Of a stretch of 64,000 bases of DNA, positions 6,001 through 53,408 are shown one piece after another. The stretch comes from Pseudobdellovibrionaceae bacterium (GTDB lineage Bacteria > Bdellovibrionota > Bdellovibrionia > Bdellovibrionales > UBA1609): NCBI GenBank assembly GCA_018663505.1, contig JABJQG010000048.1:62001-126000 (forward strand). The letters are read 5' to 3'. Under the pieces are notes generated by a model that was not told where the DNA came from, did no database searches, and saw only the letters and a program-made list of their open reading frames with translations. A program made the translations under genes and the position numbers. The stretch's first letter is position 1. Each line of letters starts with the position of its first letter.

Positions 6001-6860
6001 CAGTTAGGGTCACCCTCACACTGAACCACAATTACACTGCCATCAGCATTAGGTTGAGAAAGGGTAAATATGGTATTTGGGTCGTTTAAGTTACAAGGGG
6101 GCATGCTCGGGCAAGATGTTTCCATTGAGCTTCCATCTTCATTAAATTCAGTAAAGGAACTACTAGGTGGCTCTCCATTTTGAGAATAATTCACCTCTAA
6201 TTGAGAAGTGGGTTGAGCTGGCGGAGTGGCAGGAGGATCTGTGGGTGCTCCTGCAATTACTGTTGTGATTTTCCCTATTGGATTGCCCTCTTCATCATAC
6301 TGGGTCACGGTCTGTGTGGTCTTGGATTCTCCGGTCTCTGGATCTGTGGTAGTCAAGCTCACGCTGCCTGCTGTATCAAAATTAAAAGGGGCTGGAGGGG
6401 CTGGAGGATCCGTAAGAACCATTACACTTATGGACCCATCAGGTGCTAGTAACTCATTCACAAGAACTTCACCAGATCCGCTAGCTGGTTTATTACATCC
6501 GCCCTCAGTGTCTACAAAACAGATTTCATCAAATGCAAAGGTATGATCATCACTCCCACCACCACCACCGCCGCCACCGCCGATACTAAAGTCAGGCCCC
6601 GCAATAGCTTTGCAAATATGTTGGATGCAGCCATTCATATAAATTGTTTGCTCTAAGGCAGAGTGAACATAGTTTCCGTTGGGGTCACAGGAGTGGTGAC
6701 TTTGAAGGCGAACCAGTTCTCCATCATGACCAGGATAGAATTCATTATAACAAATATTGTCTGGGGCAAAGGGACCAAAATCTAAGTAGTCTGTGCCAAA
6801 CACAGCTTGGCCATAACCTAGGATCAACACTAAAATTGCCCTCAAGCATGTAGCATTCAA
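1..6860 (-). CDS. Giant exported Ala-rich repeat protein (partial, runs off the left edge)
   Basis: One frame is open without a stop from about 6926 to base 1; I translated it throughout, and 6860 bases give 2286 codons plus 2 bases. No in-frame ATG lies near the 5' end. I chose TTG at 6860, 12 bases after a run of eight G that could serve as ribosome binding site. The N-terminus then has a hydrophobic segment ending AVFG followed by TDYL, which fits a Sec signal peptide. A run of Gly lies near residue 95. Many segments contain N-G-D-G-T/S motifs and paired Cys (for example NADQV at two places), suggesting repeated beta-rich modules. Residues about 737-1263 are dominated by Ala, Thr, Ser and Asn. 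The C-terminus is outside the window. Function unknown; I infer a surface or secreted fibre or adhesin. It follows the 2823-aa lipoprotein gene on the same strand with an 82-base gap. Confidence 0.85.
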   Translation of the reverse strand, partial: MNATCLRAILVLILGYGQAVFGTDYLDFGPFAPDNICYNEFYPGHDGELVRLQSHHSCDPNGNYVHSALEQTIYMNGCIQHICKAIAGPDFSIGGGGGGGGGSDDHTFAFDEICFVDTEGGCNKPASGSGEVLVNELLAPDGSISVMVLTDPPAPPAPFNFDTAGSVSLTTTDPETGESKTTQTVTQYDEEGNPIGKITTVIAGAPTDPPATPPAQPTSQLEVNYSQNGEPPSSSFTEFNEDGSSMETSCPSMPPCNLNDPNTIFTLSQPNADGSVIVVQCEGDPNCSTDNADQVIEFFDNQGNPVSEGEATNADVTDRSQDGDSERLETVNCTTTEISSDTCPPKDAPVDVVIESPVADPVGGIEIVEFGCDPAPANGVACTPENATTPVTKTIKDKFGNVVSQRVATPRVPATDGSDIEGFACSEEFMLELLESPPSVCATDSSDPSCTCNKDNSDAVISGSIEPQQDGKLIENISDVKTNGDGTFDIKQSLSVIDPTTGDAAQIDTSCLGEIESTVGCPVGSASVDLVDTSFTDSTGGKITSGESSMEPASDGGANISVNHSASDPSTGAQSSSELNYSNITPVPTPQTPPTMSEPPTAGEIGDAVQAYLEALDTLPPSDATSGSVSAGVDNPSDGSKSEVKIEFASDGHGGVSGESSFDSADPQGNTSSDVFAGDIDSSALDGADFTDPSALAEILNANTPGVTHVSSSSGSQLASGVSQTVNRRLDPSSGASAPSSSATAATAAAASANNGASAAASTSDPSTAAGGASMAAAGAIAASVAAAASSASSAAVINATLATAANASSAATAAINAATAATSAAANTSDPVLATAATAAAATANAAANAATSAATNATNAANAATSAATNASVAAIAATNAAIQATNAANAAAAIAADPSATATQIQNAIDLASSTAGAAAVAADAAAVATQALANALDLAANLAVVASSATAHAVDSADLAITAANAAGASIALDPASAAAAVVAAEVSSAAAIAAVAGDSSAVQSGATEAALGATAAAAATTAHQASDSATDTASGTITAATAAVAIAVLAPDIINAGTTVASSTLAAATVATNAAAAAVTAANETATDPLSAAAAIGAAAFADNAAATAVTKAAESTAASNAVNSALTLANATAQAAAIAASAVQTTAEAAALVAADPDATAVEISNVITAANAAAANAASAATAAASAADVLSLALIAAADAAEAGSAAADTAVAAANAAIDAARAAGSSEVLDAGAAAAVSAAQSAAATAIALTAGLQDETSGALYDLVDMITTYDSSANTVVGDNSTGINTQNIVYQENYGHVPNGAGVEQGELISETLSGSTNDGQPFNLQISHNDNGTSDLAIGFSEIIPGPPPRTVTSSLSLENVEQSLVDSLVTQNDSPPSISVDLNAIKSFNEQSDGATNSVTSTVYDLGAYGSLQTESTVDLANPTVADLKSTLIDDNGNETTAFCFNETYPSTTVATTVVDSSLSEIFNPEFNGGCGPNNADQVTSKEVTESFGEQTTLNTTFVKNASGENSIAFESETLAPDGESILSKLSKTCSSNNVVLETKIDECLLSDASKASGLDVEFVEPQNTENSFDIINNGNGTSTITLSEENENVNTGSKNTLSIKCSAVENLEDCKQGSEFVTNIEGSVSAPVDASGDLDGDGIADAQAGTEFVFKENGDGTFEVTMGSSVENTVTETLDSESFSCSPVADVDLSSVPMDSVNNTSASEPIDPVDLADNLSADSAQAYGLIAASSCNIKDSFRFELEDKAGNSSGSGNMNVKVDGISNGDGGFIVTSVFEVTGSNGLTSTVKYQCLVLAADLMLNGSEIETKAAEDICNSTNGETTGSTELITIGAGVTQETQRVVSAHDENNENIIITIKDENLSQVHIVRCLNIPKDTACEGEFITSESYVGLAGDGSDENAGVQVDISYLSGGPASMVLSTIDKDPDLQTTDELVMQCNVDLTQSASPISSGSGGVELLDNVVENLCSVETPPVDTYEVKSKKFLDGSLMRTEIHPYALVEGGNTVYDITTVVTQLNGSSVTSKCLEKMTSFEVCDVSVPPNQVIEKIVEILPGGEQQIDIFDLTIGINGGSGNQLLRSSMLISAGGDTLFDINARCSGSSITMQSTCNETNADSFTSKIINVDGSITNHTVLRENGVVVLNEITDIVITQTEISKNTVSMHSNGDSTSTSEVVGLDHKGSITGSTGYICKDSGGDPNDNLALAALASCEPEDASERFTSDIIINIDGSLEMTTNYFNAIADSEPIEFDSTPSGSYTCDASFEICTE
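3060..4650 (-). repeat. Ala/Thr/Ser/Asn-rich low-complexity coding segment
   Basis: About 530 codons inside the giant partial frame are mostly GCN, with ACN, AGT/TCN and AAT. The DNA carries an almost exact 36-base direct repeat, 4242-4277 and 4284-4319, offset by 42 bases (14 residues). At the protein level the motif AADPxATAxxIxN occurs near 4155 and again near 3360, and other DP-containing turns punctuate the segment. The composition recalls the Ala/Ser/Thr/Asn-rich shafts of lambda-like side tail fibres. That likeness is compositional only and does not show descent. Confidence 0.8.
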
Positions 6861-6942: not shown

Positions 6943-9900
6943 CTATCTGCCGCCAGTTAATCGACAAGAGTTCTTCAACAAAAACTGGTTCACAGGATCT
7001 AATGGTTTTGCCGATTTCGTTATTGTTGCAGGTATCGACTCATAGTAACAGCCACTTTCATCACAGACATTCGTTGAATCCACTCGCTGAGCCCAATTCC
7101 CCCTCTGGCTCCGTAACTTCGGATACACTCGTTTTACAGAACCCAAAGTACCATGAGAACTAATTGACTGTCGATATCTGTCGATATAATCACCTACAGT
7201 GTTACTGCGAGAGGTGGCCTTTACTCCTAAAAGCCATCTATATTTGGCAATATCGTCTCCACTCATTCCCGCATTTGTATACATAGACCAGTCATAAGGC
7301 TGTTCAACACCTTTTGAATCTGTCCATCGCCCATCATTGAGAGGGTCAGCTGGATAACCTTCAAAGTAATAAGGCTGAGTCGTTTCATCAATATAGTCTC
7401 CTGTTTCTGGGTCTATAGCTCGCTTAACCAATGATGTTCCGTTCATAACAGGGTAAGGATACAGCTGAAAGGATTCATGATTTTCTTGAAGGGCACAGTT
7501 CATACGTGACTGGTATTGAGATCTCCAGTAATACCTTTTGTGAGAGTCAAAAGTGCCATGATTTTCCCAAGACTCTAGTAAATGGTTTACCCTAGGAAAA
7601 AGCACTTCCGCATAGTCCACAACAACAGCTAAATCATCTTTATTTTGAAAAAATGGTATTTCCTTACATGCTTGCTCTATTTCGTAATACCATATTCTAT
7701 CTCGAGCTGCCTCTGATGACCCCGGCACTTCATCAGCACAAATTTTATTGGGTGTTTTAGGCACAAATGGGTGTTCAGGCTTATCCTTCACATACTGCTC
7801 TACATATACTGGCCGTAGACCTTTGTGCTCATCCCTACAGTCATCAAGCATTGCTGAACCACTGTCACCACTACCAACAATAGAGAAAACCCCTCCCCGC
7901 CGAACTTTTTTCTTTAGGTCACAGTAAAAGGTTCCATAAACATTGGTTACATTTTCAATATGACCTAAAATATCTGCAGAAAAATCCGTGGCGAATTCCA
8001 TAAGTTCATTATTACTATTATTCTCCAAGTATGTTTTTAGAGACCGATTATAAGCTTCTGTGCTTTGATATGCCTGACTGTCTGGATCTTCATTTCTCAC
8101 AGGGAAGCCTTGTGCTCTCACCATCTCCCCTAAATCAGAAGAGTACATATCTACATAACATTCCCATTGACTGGGGATCGTTCTATTTCCTGCCACATTC
8201 GTTTCAGTGATTAAGGTGACTATTTCCATATTTTCTCTCACCCCAACCTGAGCTAAACCTTTACATTGAAGTGCTGGGTCATTAGCATCGTAATAATTTC
8301 CAGTACAGGCCGTTTCCTCAGTTGGAAATCCTTCTAATTGGCAGACCCAATTGTGAGTTCCTGTTTTAACCTCTCCTACAAAACAACCATCATTAACAGG
8401 CAGAGAACTCACTGGGTCTACTACATTTCCAGAGGCACAAACTGTGGACTCAACACGCTCAGAATCAAAGGTCTTACCAACTGTTTTATAGTATTCTGAC
8501 ACCTGTTCTTCACAGGTTTTTGTGTTATCTGCTCCGTCTGGAGGAGTTAAATCTGTATCACAAAATGCTTTGGATTCAAATATGGGGTAATAAGAGGCCT
8601 CTTTAAGAACACTCCCTGGCCCACAATATTCAAGAGCATTGTTAGAGTCCGTAGCGTCTGGCATTTGCACAAAAGGAGCCCGGTGTCCTTGTTGAGACGA
8701 TTTTTTCCCACAAATTGCCGTGTTATAAGTGGCCTCACAACTTAAGTATCGATCACCACAAGCTCCAGCAATGAGTGACGCATTTCTATGTGGTTGAGCT
8801 AAAGCATCTTCACACTCAACCGTAACTGCGGGGTTGCTGCAGTTCCAAGAAAAACCAGTGTGGTTATCTTCACTATCCACATTATAACTAATGGTTTGCG
8901 CGGCTCCATTTTCGCATAAACTAAATCGGTTGGCATTTTCTTGTTTTATACCTACGGTTGTTTTTTTCGCTTCACTTTCAGCACCAAAAAATAAACCTTC
9001 AGCAGGGGTTTGTCCACCTGGTAAATAAAAACTGCCCTCATGAGCCTTACCACAGGCTGGTGATAATACATCTGTACCACTTATGTTGGAAATACTAATA
9101 GGGTCAAAGACGATTAACCCATTTTCAATAAGTACCTTGTCATCTTCAACTAGTGCTGCTTTTTCTGTTAAGGTGAAAACAAAATCATCTTTAGCATCAA
9201 TGGCCACTACGGCTTCTAAAGTAGCCATGGATTGATCAGCTAAATTCACGAGCTTTATATTTGAAATTGTACGATCTGCCTCGGCAGGTTCAACCTCAGC
9301 GCCTCGAATAGCTGCTAAATTCCTTACATCACTGGCCATAAACATACAGTTAATCACCAACTCAGCGTTAGCCTCTCCCGTCCAATTATAAACAATACCA
9401 GACAGTCGACTTCCTGAGTAACTCAATCCTCCATAATAGTTCCCATTACATCCATTGGAACTTAAAGTATTAGAAATGCCTTTAAACTTTACTTCTAATT
9501 CAAAGGCTTGTAATTTTTTACTACTACTAATACTGGCATCAAAATCGAGTTCATCAATCACATCACTATCACTGGGATGATTTGAATACTTAGCACTATT
9601 AAATGACCTGTTTAAACCACTGTCCACCACATTCGTTGAGCTAATGGTTAAGTTATTCGTATGATAAATTCCTGTGGGCTCTGCATTTACATATTCTTCA
9701 ACCATACCTGCAGCTAAACCAGTATATTGATTTAACAAAGCACCATCACTGTCAAAACCCACGGCACGAAACTCAATTTGCTCTGCATCTGCGTACTCTT
9801 CAATGGCCATGACAGAATATAATCTTTGTGCACCATGAACATCTTCATAATGTCTAAAACCAATCAATATAGGTGTTCGTAAATGTTTAGGATCTGTATC

Positions 9901-47607: not shown

Positions 47608-48180
47608 ATGAAAACTCTGATATTAACAGCAACCTTTGCTCTACTTACAACCTCATGCTCCACAACCTACAGAGCTCCAAGGGGTTATAAGTCACCAGAC
47701 ACATACTCTTCTCCCAACAAGTACCTAGGCCCCAAGTATCGCTCTGCCCAATTATCAACAAATCAAAAAAGAACATCTAAAATAAGACCACAACATGGCA
47801 TAGCTTTTATTTGGCCCATTAATAAAGCTAAATTGTCACAAAAATTTTCTCCAAGTCACAATACATCTCATGCTGGAATTGATTTAGCTAGCCACCGCGG
47901 TACTCCAATTTTAGCCGCCCATGAAGGTACCATAATCTTTGCCGGAAAAAAGTATCGAGGCTATGGCAATATGATCATCATTGAACGGGATGATGACTGG
48001 GGTTCTCTATATGCACATCTTGACAAACTCTATATAAAAAGTGGCGAGTACGTAAAACAAGGCGAAGTGATCGGAACCATGGGGCGTACAGGTCGTGCAA
48101 CAGGTGTGCACTTACATTTTGAACTGATTTATCAGAAAATACCTGTGGATCCAATACCTCATCTAAGACAAGCTATCTAG
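47608..48180 (+). CDS. M23 (LytM) family metallopeptidase lipoprotein
   Basis: 190 aa. The signal ends LLTTSCS, a lipobox with Cys17. After a Tyr/Pro/Ser-rich linker, residues about 65-185 are a LytM domain with the zinc ligands in HAGIDL (HxxxD) and HLHFEL (HxH), and GNMIIIERDDDWGSLYAHL. All ligands are present, so it may cut peptidoglycan cross-links, or act as an NlpD-type activator. Envelope-attached. Followed by a strong terminator. Confidence 0.9.
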   Translation: MKTLILTATFALLTTSCSTTYRAPRGYKSPDTYSSPNKYLGPKYRSAQLSTNQKRTSKIRPQHGIAFIWPINKAKLSQKFSPSHNTSHAGIDLASHRGTPILAAHEGTIIFAGKKYRGYGNMIIIERDDDWGSLYAHLDKLYIKSGEYVKQGEVIGTMGRTGRATGVHLHFELIYQKIPVDPIPHLRQAI

Positions 48181-51630: not shown

Positions 51631-51706
51631 GCGGAATTAGCTCAGTTGGTAGAGCACCAGCTCGACATGTTGGTGGTCACAGGTTCAAGTCCTGTATTCC
51701 GCACCA
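51631..51706 (+). tRNA. tRNA-Val (GAC)
   Basis: Full cloverleaf: acceptor GCGGAAT with ATTCCGC, D stem GCTC with GAGC, anticodon stem CCAGC with GTTGG (one G-T), T stem ACAGG with CCTGT and T loop TTCAAGT. CCA is encoded. The loop TCGACAT puts GAC at positions 34-36, reading valine codons. Position 33 is C where U is normal. The last ten bases recur at 53133. Confidence 0.95.
51697..51706 (+). other. Left direct repeat at the tRNA 3' end (attL-like)
   Basis: TTCCGCACCA is the 3' end of tRNA-Val and is repeated exactly at 53133-53142, on the same strand, enclosing the Fic gene. Exact repeats of a tRNA 3' end are the usual mark of site-specific integration. No integrase lies between them. Confidence 0.55.
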
Positions 51707-51731
51707 GAGTGATTCAAAAATGAATCACTCT
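51706..51731 (+). terminator. Perfect hairpin after the tRNA
   Basis: AGAGTGATTCA at 51706-51716 pairs exactly with TGAATCACTCT at 51721-51731 around four A. It directly follows the CCA end. There is no T-run, so it may aid 3' processing or be a weak terminator. Confidence 0.6.
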
Positions 51732-51870
51732 GATATCAATATCTGAATCTCCACGCCTAATCACTGCGAGGAAACGTCATAAACTTGATGAGCCTCCATA
51801 CTTAACTGCATATACTTACAGCTAGCTTTCTCGCCCTACGCACTAATTATAAGGTTATTTGTGCAAACTC

Positions 51871-51926
51871 TTGATCTATGCATAAATAACACTATAATTG
51901 GTGCATAGGCAGATTCTATGCACCAA
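51871..51926 (+). promoter_or_regulatory. Fic promoter with an operator-like palindrome
   Basis: TTGATC at 51871-51876 and TATAAT at 51893-51898 are separated by 16 bases. Overlapping the end of the -10 box, TTGGTGCATAG (51898-51908) and CTATGCACCAA (51916-51926) form a perfect 11-base inverted repeat. A further CTATGCA half-site lies at 51876-51882, at the end of the -35 box. A protein bound here would block transcription. Confidence 0.7.
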
Positions 51927-51937
51927 GGGATATAAGT

Positions 51938-53005
51938 ATGAGTTCATCACCCATCAGACCACTTCAAGAGTATGAGAACGTTGAAACTACGAGAGTACTA
52001 AAGGCGCTTGTAAGGGCCCATAAAGCGCTTGGAGAGCTAAAAGGGCTGGCTTTGAGCATGCCTAATCAAAATATTCTACTGTCTACCCTTTCATTACAAG
52101 AAGCAAAAGAGAGCTCTGCAATTGAGAATATAATTACAACTCAAGATGATCTTTACCAAAGTAACTACCTAACACAAGAATTTACATCTTCTGAGGCAAA
52201 AGAAGTTCACAGTTACGCCAAAGCATTAAAGGTTGGCTTTGAACTTGTAACCACCACCGGTCTTTTAACAAATAGTTCCATTATTAAGATACAACAAACT
52301 ATTGAAAATAATAATGCAGGCTTTAGGAAACAAGCTGGTACGACATTGATAAACAATAAAACCAAAGACATTATTTACACTCCCCCGCAGTCCGAAAAAG
52401 TGGTTTTAACTTTAATGGGGGAGCTTGAGCAATTTATTAATACAGACGATCTAAGTGATTATGATGTTCTTACAAAAATGGCAATGATCCACCACCAGTT
52501 TGAAAGTATTCATCCATTTTATGATGGAAACGGAAGAACTGGTCGTATTATCAATATTCTATACCTAACAAAGCAAAATATTCTAGGAACACCTATTTTA
52601 TATCTTTCTCGTTTTATTAACCAAAATAAAGATGAATATTACAAACTTTTACAGTCAGTCAGAGAAAGTGAAAACTGGGAACCATGGCTATTATATATGT
52701 TAAAAGCTTTAGAGGTAACAGCTTTAGACACATCTAAGATGATTCAAGATTTAATACTATTGATGCAAGAATACAAACAAACTATAAAGGTAAAACTTCC
52801 TAAAATATATAGCCATGAATTGATCAACAATCTATTTAGTCACCCATACACAAAAAATGAATTTCTAGTTGAAGAGCTCGGTATTCATAGAAACACAGCG
52901 CGAAGGTATCTTGATAGCTTAGTGGTAATAGGTTTACTGAAAAAAGAAAAAATAGGTAATCAAAATTTTTATATAAATAAAAAATTATTTATACTTTTAT
53001 CTTAA
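51938..53005 (+). CDS. Fic domain protein (class II AMPylator type) with winged-helix C-terminus
   Basis: 355 aa; ATG follows AAGGGATATAAGT. The Fic active-site motif HPFYDGNGRTGR (near residues 192-203) is complete, so nucleotide transfer, usually AMP to a protein hydroxyl, is expected. An N-terminal inhibitory motif of the form SxxxEN occurs at Ser59-Asn64 (SSAIEN), as in class II Fic proteins, so activity is probably held in check. The N-terminal helical region matches Fic_N. Residues about 285-355 look like a winged helix (FLVEELGIHRNTARRYLDSL), which suggests DNA binding and possible self-regulation at the palindrome upstream. It is the only gene between the tRNA-Val direct repeats. Confidence 0.9.
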   Translation: MSSSPIRPLQEYENVETTRVLKALVRAHKALGELKGLALSMPNQNILLSTLSLQEAKESSAIENIITTQDDLYQSNYLTQEFTSSEAKEVHSYAKALKVGFELVTTTGLLTNSSIIKIQQTIENNNAGFRKQAGTTLINNKTKDIIYTPPQSEKVVLTLMGELEQFINTDDLSDYDVLTKMAMIHHQFESIHPFYDGNGRTGRIINILYLTKQNILGTPILYLSRFINQNKDEYYKLLQSVRESENWEPWLLYMLKALEVTALDTSKMIQDLILLMQEYKQTIKVKLPKIYSHELINNLFSHPYTKNEFLVEELGIHRNTARRYLDSLVVIGLLKKEKIGNQNFYINKKLFILLS

Positions 53006-53132
53006 GCTTTTAAACCCATAGAAATCGCTTACTTATCACTTTTTTATGAGTAAAAATAAAATGAGTTTGGCTTGTTCATGGCTTGTTTGAAAATAAACCT
53101 AAATGATAATAGGGAGTTATTGATTTTCCATC

Positions 53133-53142
53133 TTCCGCACCA
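53133..53142 (+). other. Right direct repeat of the tRNA-Val 3' end (attR-like)
   Basis: TTCCGCACCA repeats positions 51697-51706 exactly. The spacing gives an islet of 1.44 kb. Ten bases is short for an att site, so the match could be by chance, but it is exactly the tRNA terminus. Confidence 0.5.
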
Positions 53143-53161: not shown

Positions 53162-53302
53162 TCAACTATCAACCAACTTTAAAAGTCTTTTTACCATAAG
53201 CTTGCTGATGTGCTTACAAAAAATATAATTCAACATCTCGCCTGGAGTTATAACTAAATTAATTTTTGCCTTTTTAAACTCTTTTTTATTAATTTTTTTC
53301 AT
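53162..53302 (-). pseudogene. HigA-like antitoxin remnant (46 aa)
   Basis: ATG at 53302 follows AAGGAG. The product (MKKINKKEFK..., with INLVITPGEMLNYIF) matches the start of HigA-type antitoxins, where PGE-x-L precedes the helix-turn-helix, but it stops after 46 residues instead of about 90-100. The ribosome binding site overlaps the stop of the toxin fragment upstream, as in toxin-first HigBA operons. It ends about 20 bases from the right tRNA repeat, so the rest was probably lost at that boundary. Confidence 0.6.
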
Positions 53303-53312
53303 AAAAATCTCC

Positions 53313-53408
53313 TTAATACTTAAGTGGAGTAATTTCAATCACATATACTTCTAGTTGTTTAGATTCAACTTTATATATAATACGCCATTGCTTATTTAAA
53401 CGAGACGT
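53313..53408 (-). pseudogene. HigB/RelE-like toxin fragment (C-terminal 31 residues)
   Basis: An open frame without start codon reads SRLNKQWRIIYKVESKQ then LEVYVIEITPLKY and a TAA just before the antitoxin ribosome binding site. LNKQWRI and the ending fit the C-terminal strands of RelE/HigB toxins. A TAA at 53411-53409 breaks the frame upstream, so no full toxin remains. Confidence 0.6.

Follow-up and report, generated by a model that had tools for sequence, protein, structure and literature searches.

SoFic-type Fic proteins are known from Shewanella and Escherichia coli, and the E. coli Sofic is described as acting by abortive infection, with a 47-aa antitoxin gene (AS1) lying downstream of it (PMC12249575). 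A second relevant protein is CccR, a class II Fic protein with a C-terminal HTH, which is reported to repress its own gene through palindromes in the promoter (PMC9755527). As regards small inserts at tRNA genes, Methylophilaceae have been described to carry islands of 330 bp to 42 kb, with 1 to 63 CDS, next to repeated copies of the 20 nt at the 3' end of tRNA-Lys (PMC10872708). Our literature search on tycheposons with att sites found no paper.

We report here a Fic gene located downstream of a tRNA gene in a stretch of 64,000 nucleotides (the window) from a Pseudobdellovibrionaceae bacterium. The reading that we favour, with moderate confidence, is that a laterally acquired, self-regulated SoFic-type Fic gene occupies the spacer 3' of tRNA-Val(GAC), and that the repeat of the tRNA end found beyond the gene is likelier a chance match or a scrap than an att site.

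The Fic gene (51938-53005, + strand) encodes a SoFic-type class II protein of 355 aa. Its Pfam domains are Fic_N, Fic (60 bits, cut-off 24) and SoFic-like_C (PF21248, 96 bits, cut-off 27), the SoFic model of PADLOC recognizes it with 363.6 bits (3.3e-109), and the solved structures of SoFic (PDB 3eqx and 9vjc) match it at 1e-75 to 1e-78. The NCBIfam equivalog NF046030 gave 353.8 bits, below its cut-off of 550, which makes the protein a relative and not the equivalog. Class II Fic proteins carry their inhibitory motif, (S/T)xxxE(G/N), in the N-terminal part. This motif is found here as SSAIEN at residue 59, aligned with SSRIEN of 9vjc, and the FIC motif HxFx(D/E)GNGRxxR is present as HPFYDGNGRTGR at residue 192. 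With both motifs in place, it is very likely that the protein functions as an adenylyltransferase that is active and inhibits itself. Judged from its sequence, the gene is a bacterial Fic of a known anti-phage type, and the toxin or defence cargo proposed in the preliminary description agrees with the single-gene defence toxin type recognized by PADLOC. AMPylation and a role in defence would follow from this family membership: the inhibitory helix bearing SSAIEN would hold back the HPFYDGNGRTGR active site until the protein is released, as occurs on phage infection in known SoFic, after which it would AMPylate host proteins and growth would stop. No ORF of at least 50 aa was found on the + strand from the Fic stop codon to 53483, hence there is no obvious counterpart of AS1.

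Upstream of the gene lies a sigma-70-like promoter, TTGATC-16-TATAAT (51871-51898, + strand), agreeing at 10 of 12 positions; the region is no richer in sites of this kind than shuffled sequences are. A putative operator, TTGGTGCATAG-N7-CTATGCACCAA (51898-51926, + strand), starts where the -10 box ends and overlaps the promoter. It forms a perfect 11-bp palindrome, and none of 300 shuffles contained one of equal length. Among 11 upstream regions of SoFic-type genes, where the start codons of G012 and of the phage record were guessed, a palindrome at P<0.05 was found in five (the window, the genome's own C8 copy at 0.047, G001, G113 and one plasmid), and this level was not reached in the six others. 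By analogy with CccR, we infer that the Fic gene is autorepressed through its palindrome, most likely by binding of the C-terminal winged-helix-like domain to the site that overlaps the promoter. The locus would offer a clean system for testing autorepression in SoFic-type proteins. Another SoFic-type Fic promoter (L003, G001:C1) presents several direct and inverted GATAGATATAC-like copies within about 150 nt upstream, which likely form an operator array.

The tRNA-Val(GAC) gene (51631-51706, + strand; CCA encoded; Rfam RF00005, 68.3 bits) is the single tRNA found in the window by ARAGORN and Rfam. As the preliminary description had pointed out, its exact 3' end, TTCCGCACCA (51697-51706), recurs about 1.44 kb downstream (53133-53142), and these two copies, both on the + strand and some 1.43-1.44 kb apart, are the only exact occurrences in the window. 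Between them lies a single ORF, the Fic gene with its own promoter, in agreement with the one-gene unit first proposed. The match is exactly 10 bp long, as the bases flanking the two copies differ at once on either side. A decayed second tRNA was considered for the right copy and rejected, since the match is limited to the last 10 bases and no tRNA is recognized there by ARAGORN or Rfam. Directly 3' of the tRNA, and beginning within its CCA end, stands a perfect 12-bp inverted repeat with a 4-nt loop (51705-51732, + strand) and no T run after it; this stem is the longest found directly 3' of any of the 32 tRNAs of the genome.

How far such a repeat exceeds chance depends on the scale considered. 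A first-order model of the window predicts 0.0010 copies of TTCCGCACCA for 1.5 kb and 0.0067 for 10 kb. As a control, we took every tail from the 32 tRNAs detected in the genome (30 different tails) and compared it with the downstream regions of other tRNAs of the same genome; these mismatched pairs gave 14 matches in 21.55 Mb. This rate corresponds to 0.00097 matches in 1.5 kb, and to 0.028 when the 1.5-kb flanks of all 32 tRNAs (42.8 kb in total) are taken together. Among these 14 matches are two real tRNA genes and, on contig C65, a long copy of the tail of another tRNA, perhaps a relic. Genome-wide, TTCCGCACCA occurs eight times, compared to five for the reversed pattern, and ARAGORN detected no tRNA at the six other places. 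With about 0.001 expected for tRNA-Val alone and about 0.03 over 32 tRNAs, the repeat is above chance locally and only marginally so genome-wide; as the case stands, a 10-mer from a tRNA tail is by itself marginal evidence. The copy on C65 (L193, around 6120-6140) is a long exact copy of the tail of the tRNA on contig C6, CTCTCCCTCTCCGCCAATT, located 0.5 kb downstream of another tRNA, and may be either an old attachment site or a low-complexity coincidence.

Elsewhere in the genome, attachment sites of integrated elements can be recognized. When about 400 kb of sequence downstream of the 32 tRNAs was considered, tail recurrences of 10 bases or more came to light at three of them, namely tRNA-Val and the tRNAs on contigs C58 and C6, and the latter two recurrences both go with integrase-bearing elements. 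On C58 (L128, G000:C58:34707-53029), a 17-bp exact repeat of a tRNA-Asp (anticodon read by eye), with copies 9.3 kb apart, bounds the element by CGTCCACCCCGCCATTT, with attR near 9336-9349; a tyrosine integrase lies near the right copy, and the element also has a primase-like gene known from ORF reading. On C6 (L138, G000:C6:24000-42129), a 90-nt tRNA is followed by an 18-bp repeat with one mismatch about 15 kb away, a tyrosine integrase stands between the copies, and the 3' part of an ORF for a serine recombinase contains the right copy. Both repeats extend beyond CCA into TTT, a triplet present within eight bases of CCA in 23 of the 32 tRNAs and at neither copy of the tRNA-Val tail. Compared to these 17-18 bp reaching past CCA, the tRNA-Val repeat is shorter and stops exactly at the tRNA end. 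The idea of a working 10-bp att site served by a helper is not supported, as the bona fide elements have repeats that include TTT whereas both flanks at tRNA-Val differ after CCA. Elsewhere in the same genome (L206, G000:C59, 3989-7980 and 16087-16482), an HTH and Fic pair resembles the "mobile mystery proteins A/B", and two AbiE-like genes occur at this locus along with a tyrosine recombinase that has a truncated near-copy 8 kb away, all these names coming from reading of the translations.

For the downstream copy, chance or a scrap that carries no information is a likelier explanation than a functional attachment site: it ends at 10 bp, about 0.03 such copies are expected over all tRNAs, and it does not extend into TTT. 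What counts against chance is the low expectation for tRNA-Val taken alone and the fact that, on C58 and C6, the recurrences of 10 bases or more both accompany integrases. An islet bounded by att sites is a possible, less likely reading.

Just outside the right copy, the preliminary description had noticed a toxin-antitoxin remnant, and this was borne out by homology to an intact pair in another genome (G016:C62), in which toxin and antitoxin genes are complete, adjacent and in the same order, whereas both are incomplete in the window. The antitoxin remnant (53165-53302, - strand) retains the N-terminal portion of an antitoxin of XRE type (48% over 23 aa; E 0.08 when taken alone); the likeness stops after TPGEML, some 80 bases before the right TTCCGCACCA is reached. 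The toxin remnant (53316-53408, - strand) retains the last 30 codons or so of a RelE/HigB-like toxin (57% over 30 aa, E 1.4e-6; Txe/YoeB model, E 0.0096). Neither Pfam nor tblastn against plasmids gave a match to the remnant, which was identified by the family search; the break after TPGEML and the intact pair of G016:C62 together indicate that this identification is right. The further suggestion that several cassettes were inserted in turn was not supported, with one remnant only and no repeat beyond it. A single exact tail copy exists in the 19.3 kb downstream of tRNA-Val, besides a mismatched site at 17.9 kb, and the several tail repeats separating cassettes that mark an additive flexible island were not found at tRNA-Val.

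These broken genes adjoining the right copy are one reason to consider, as a tentative alternative, that the locus is what remains of a larger tRNA-Val element, inserted by a tyrosine integrase and then deprived of integrase and cargo by deletion, with the Fic gene and a shortened attR left in place. The coincidence of the repeat with the exact tRNA-Val end, the two integrase-bearing elements at other tRNAs of the genome and the lateral ancestry suggested for the Fic gene (see below) are in line with this scenario. However, its repeat would be of 10 bp instead of 17-18 bp, with TTT after neither CCA, and, as first noted from the window, no integrase is present: none of the 13 matches to Phage_integrase (PF00589) in the genome falls on the 170-kb contig that bears tRNA-Val. 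The comparison of this tRNA locus among relatives, which the preliminary description had called for, also argues against the scenario, for at 11 further tRNA-Val(GAC) loci within the order no tail repeat was found, the longest match being 7 bp (in 1.6 to 19.9 kb of available downstream sequence), although at one of them (G040) the tRNA end lacks CCA and the tail is possibly mis-set. The comparison genomes included none of the same genus. Two other, distant Fic genes of the class adjoin tRNAs on their 3' side (tRNA-Arg in G035, tRNA-Glu in G113) with no tail repeat longer than 6 bp, which indicates that Fic genes can adjoin tRNAs without such repeats.

The closest sampled relatives of the Fic gene are plasmid-borne and come from other phyla, namely from Pseudanabaena (58%) and Pontibacter (56%), which suggests lateral transfer; the best matches in its own class reach 52-53% (G059, cut by a contig end), then 39-42%. 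The protein matched 797 of 72,556 plasmid records, 446 of them over at least 80% of its length, and 25 of 50,697 phage records, seven of them over at least 80%, and one scan of IMG/VR returned no viral relatives. In a tree of 15 rows, from which G014 and G113 were excluded owing to internal stops, the window Fic groups with plasmid, phage and G059 rows with modest support (84/88). The GC content of the gene is the second lowest among 37 window genes, and its codon usage is not foreign, being the fourth closest to the average of the same set. This last trait would suit an old resident of the spacer, acquired neither laterally nor recently, which we regard as unlikely given that only six of 143 class genomes, its own included, present a Fic match at E<=1e-40 and that no Fic gene was seen, by ORF reading, at the three closest tRNA-Val(GAC) loci (G015, G002 and G007), where other genes stand. 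Translations read at these three loci revealed LipB-like genes nearby, as well as DnaE-, M23-peptidase- and PilZ-like genes near two of them, and a peptidase of the M23 type is likewise read from a translation at 47608 of the window. An anchor search with SpoU in the genome contigs led to two distant loci only.

Weakest of all is the idea, put forward in the preliminary description, of a genuine islet of one gene that is moved in trans by a helper integrase from elsewhere, which we hold to be very improbable: the Methylophilaceae islands described beside tRNA-Lys tail repeats (PMC10872708) and the 13 PF00589 matches elsewhere in the genome speak for it, but the 231-bp left part occurs only once in the genome, which also shows no second cassette with the tRNA-Val tail and no sign of any resident integrase using tRNA-Val. 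More generally, no other copy of the islet was found in the genome beyond short matches. In its full form, which is just as improbable, a minimal 1.44-kb islet carrying a self-repressing SoFic toxin would integrate at the tRNA-Val 3' end via a 10-bp core, with an integrase borrowed from other elements. Were it mobile in trans, it would be a defence cassette of very small size, in which a single abortive-infection toxin, inhibited and repressed by features of its own, travels without antitoxin or integrase.

Taking up again the reading of a laterally acquired, self-regulated Fic gene beside tRNA-Val, the locus may be set against the known systems. With the additive flexible genomic islands of Methylophilaceae, as described (PMC10872708), it shares copies of a tRNA 3' end that border inserts down to one gene; the islands, however, have 20-nt repeats, several copies and evidence across strains, compared to 10 nt, one extra copy and one genome here. 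Similarly, the elements on C58 and C6 also repeat the 3' strand of the acceptor stem plus CCA, whereas their repeats are 17-18 bp long and reach past CCA, the elements being of 9-15 kb with tyrosine integrases; the tRNA-Val repeat is of 10 bp. CccR is described as a secreted T6SS effector (PMC9755527), and there is no hint of secretion for the window Fic; both nevertheless combine Fic with a C-terminal DNA-binding-type domain, a promoter palindrome and the same numbering of His192 and S59/E63. Finally, although the window protein scores under the NCBIfam equivalog cut-off and has no obvious counterpart of the antitoxin AS1, it aligns over its full length with SoFic (Shewanella SO4266, PDB 3eqx and 3zcn; E. 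coli Sofic, as presented in PMC12249575) and shares with it the domain order, the inhibitory motif, the FIC motif and the C-terminal domain.
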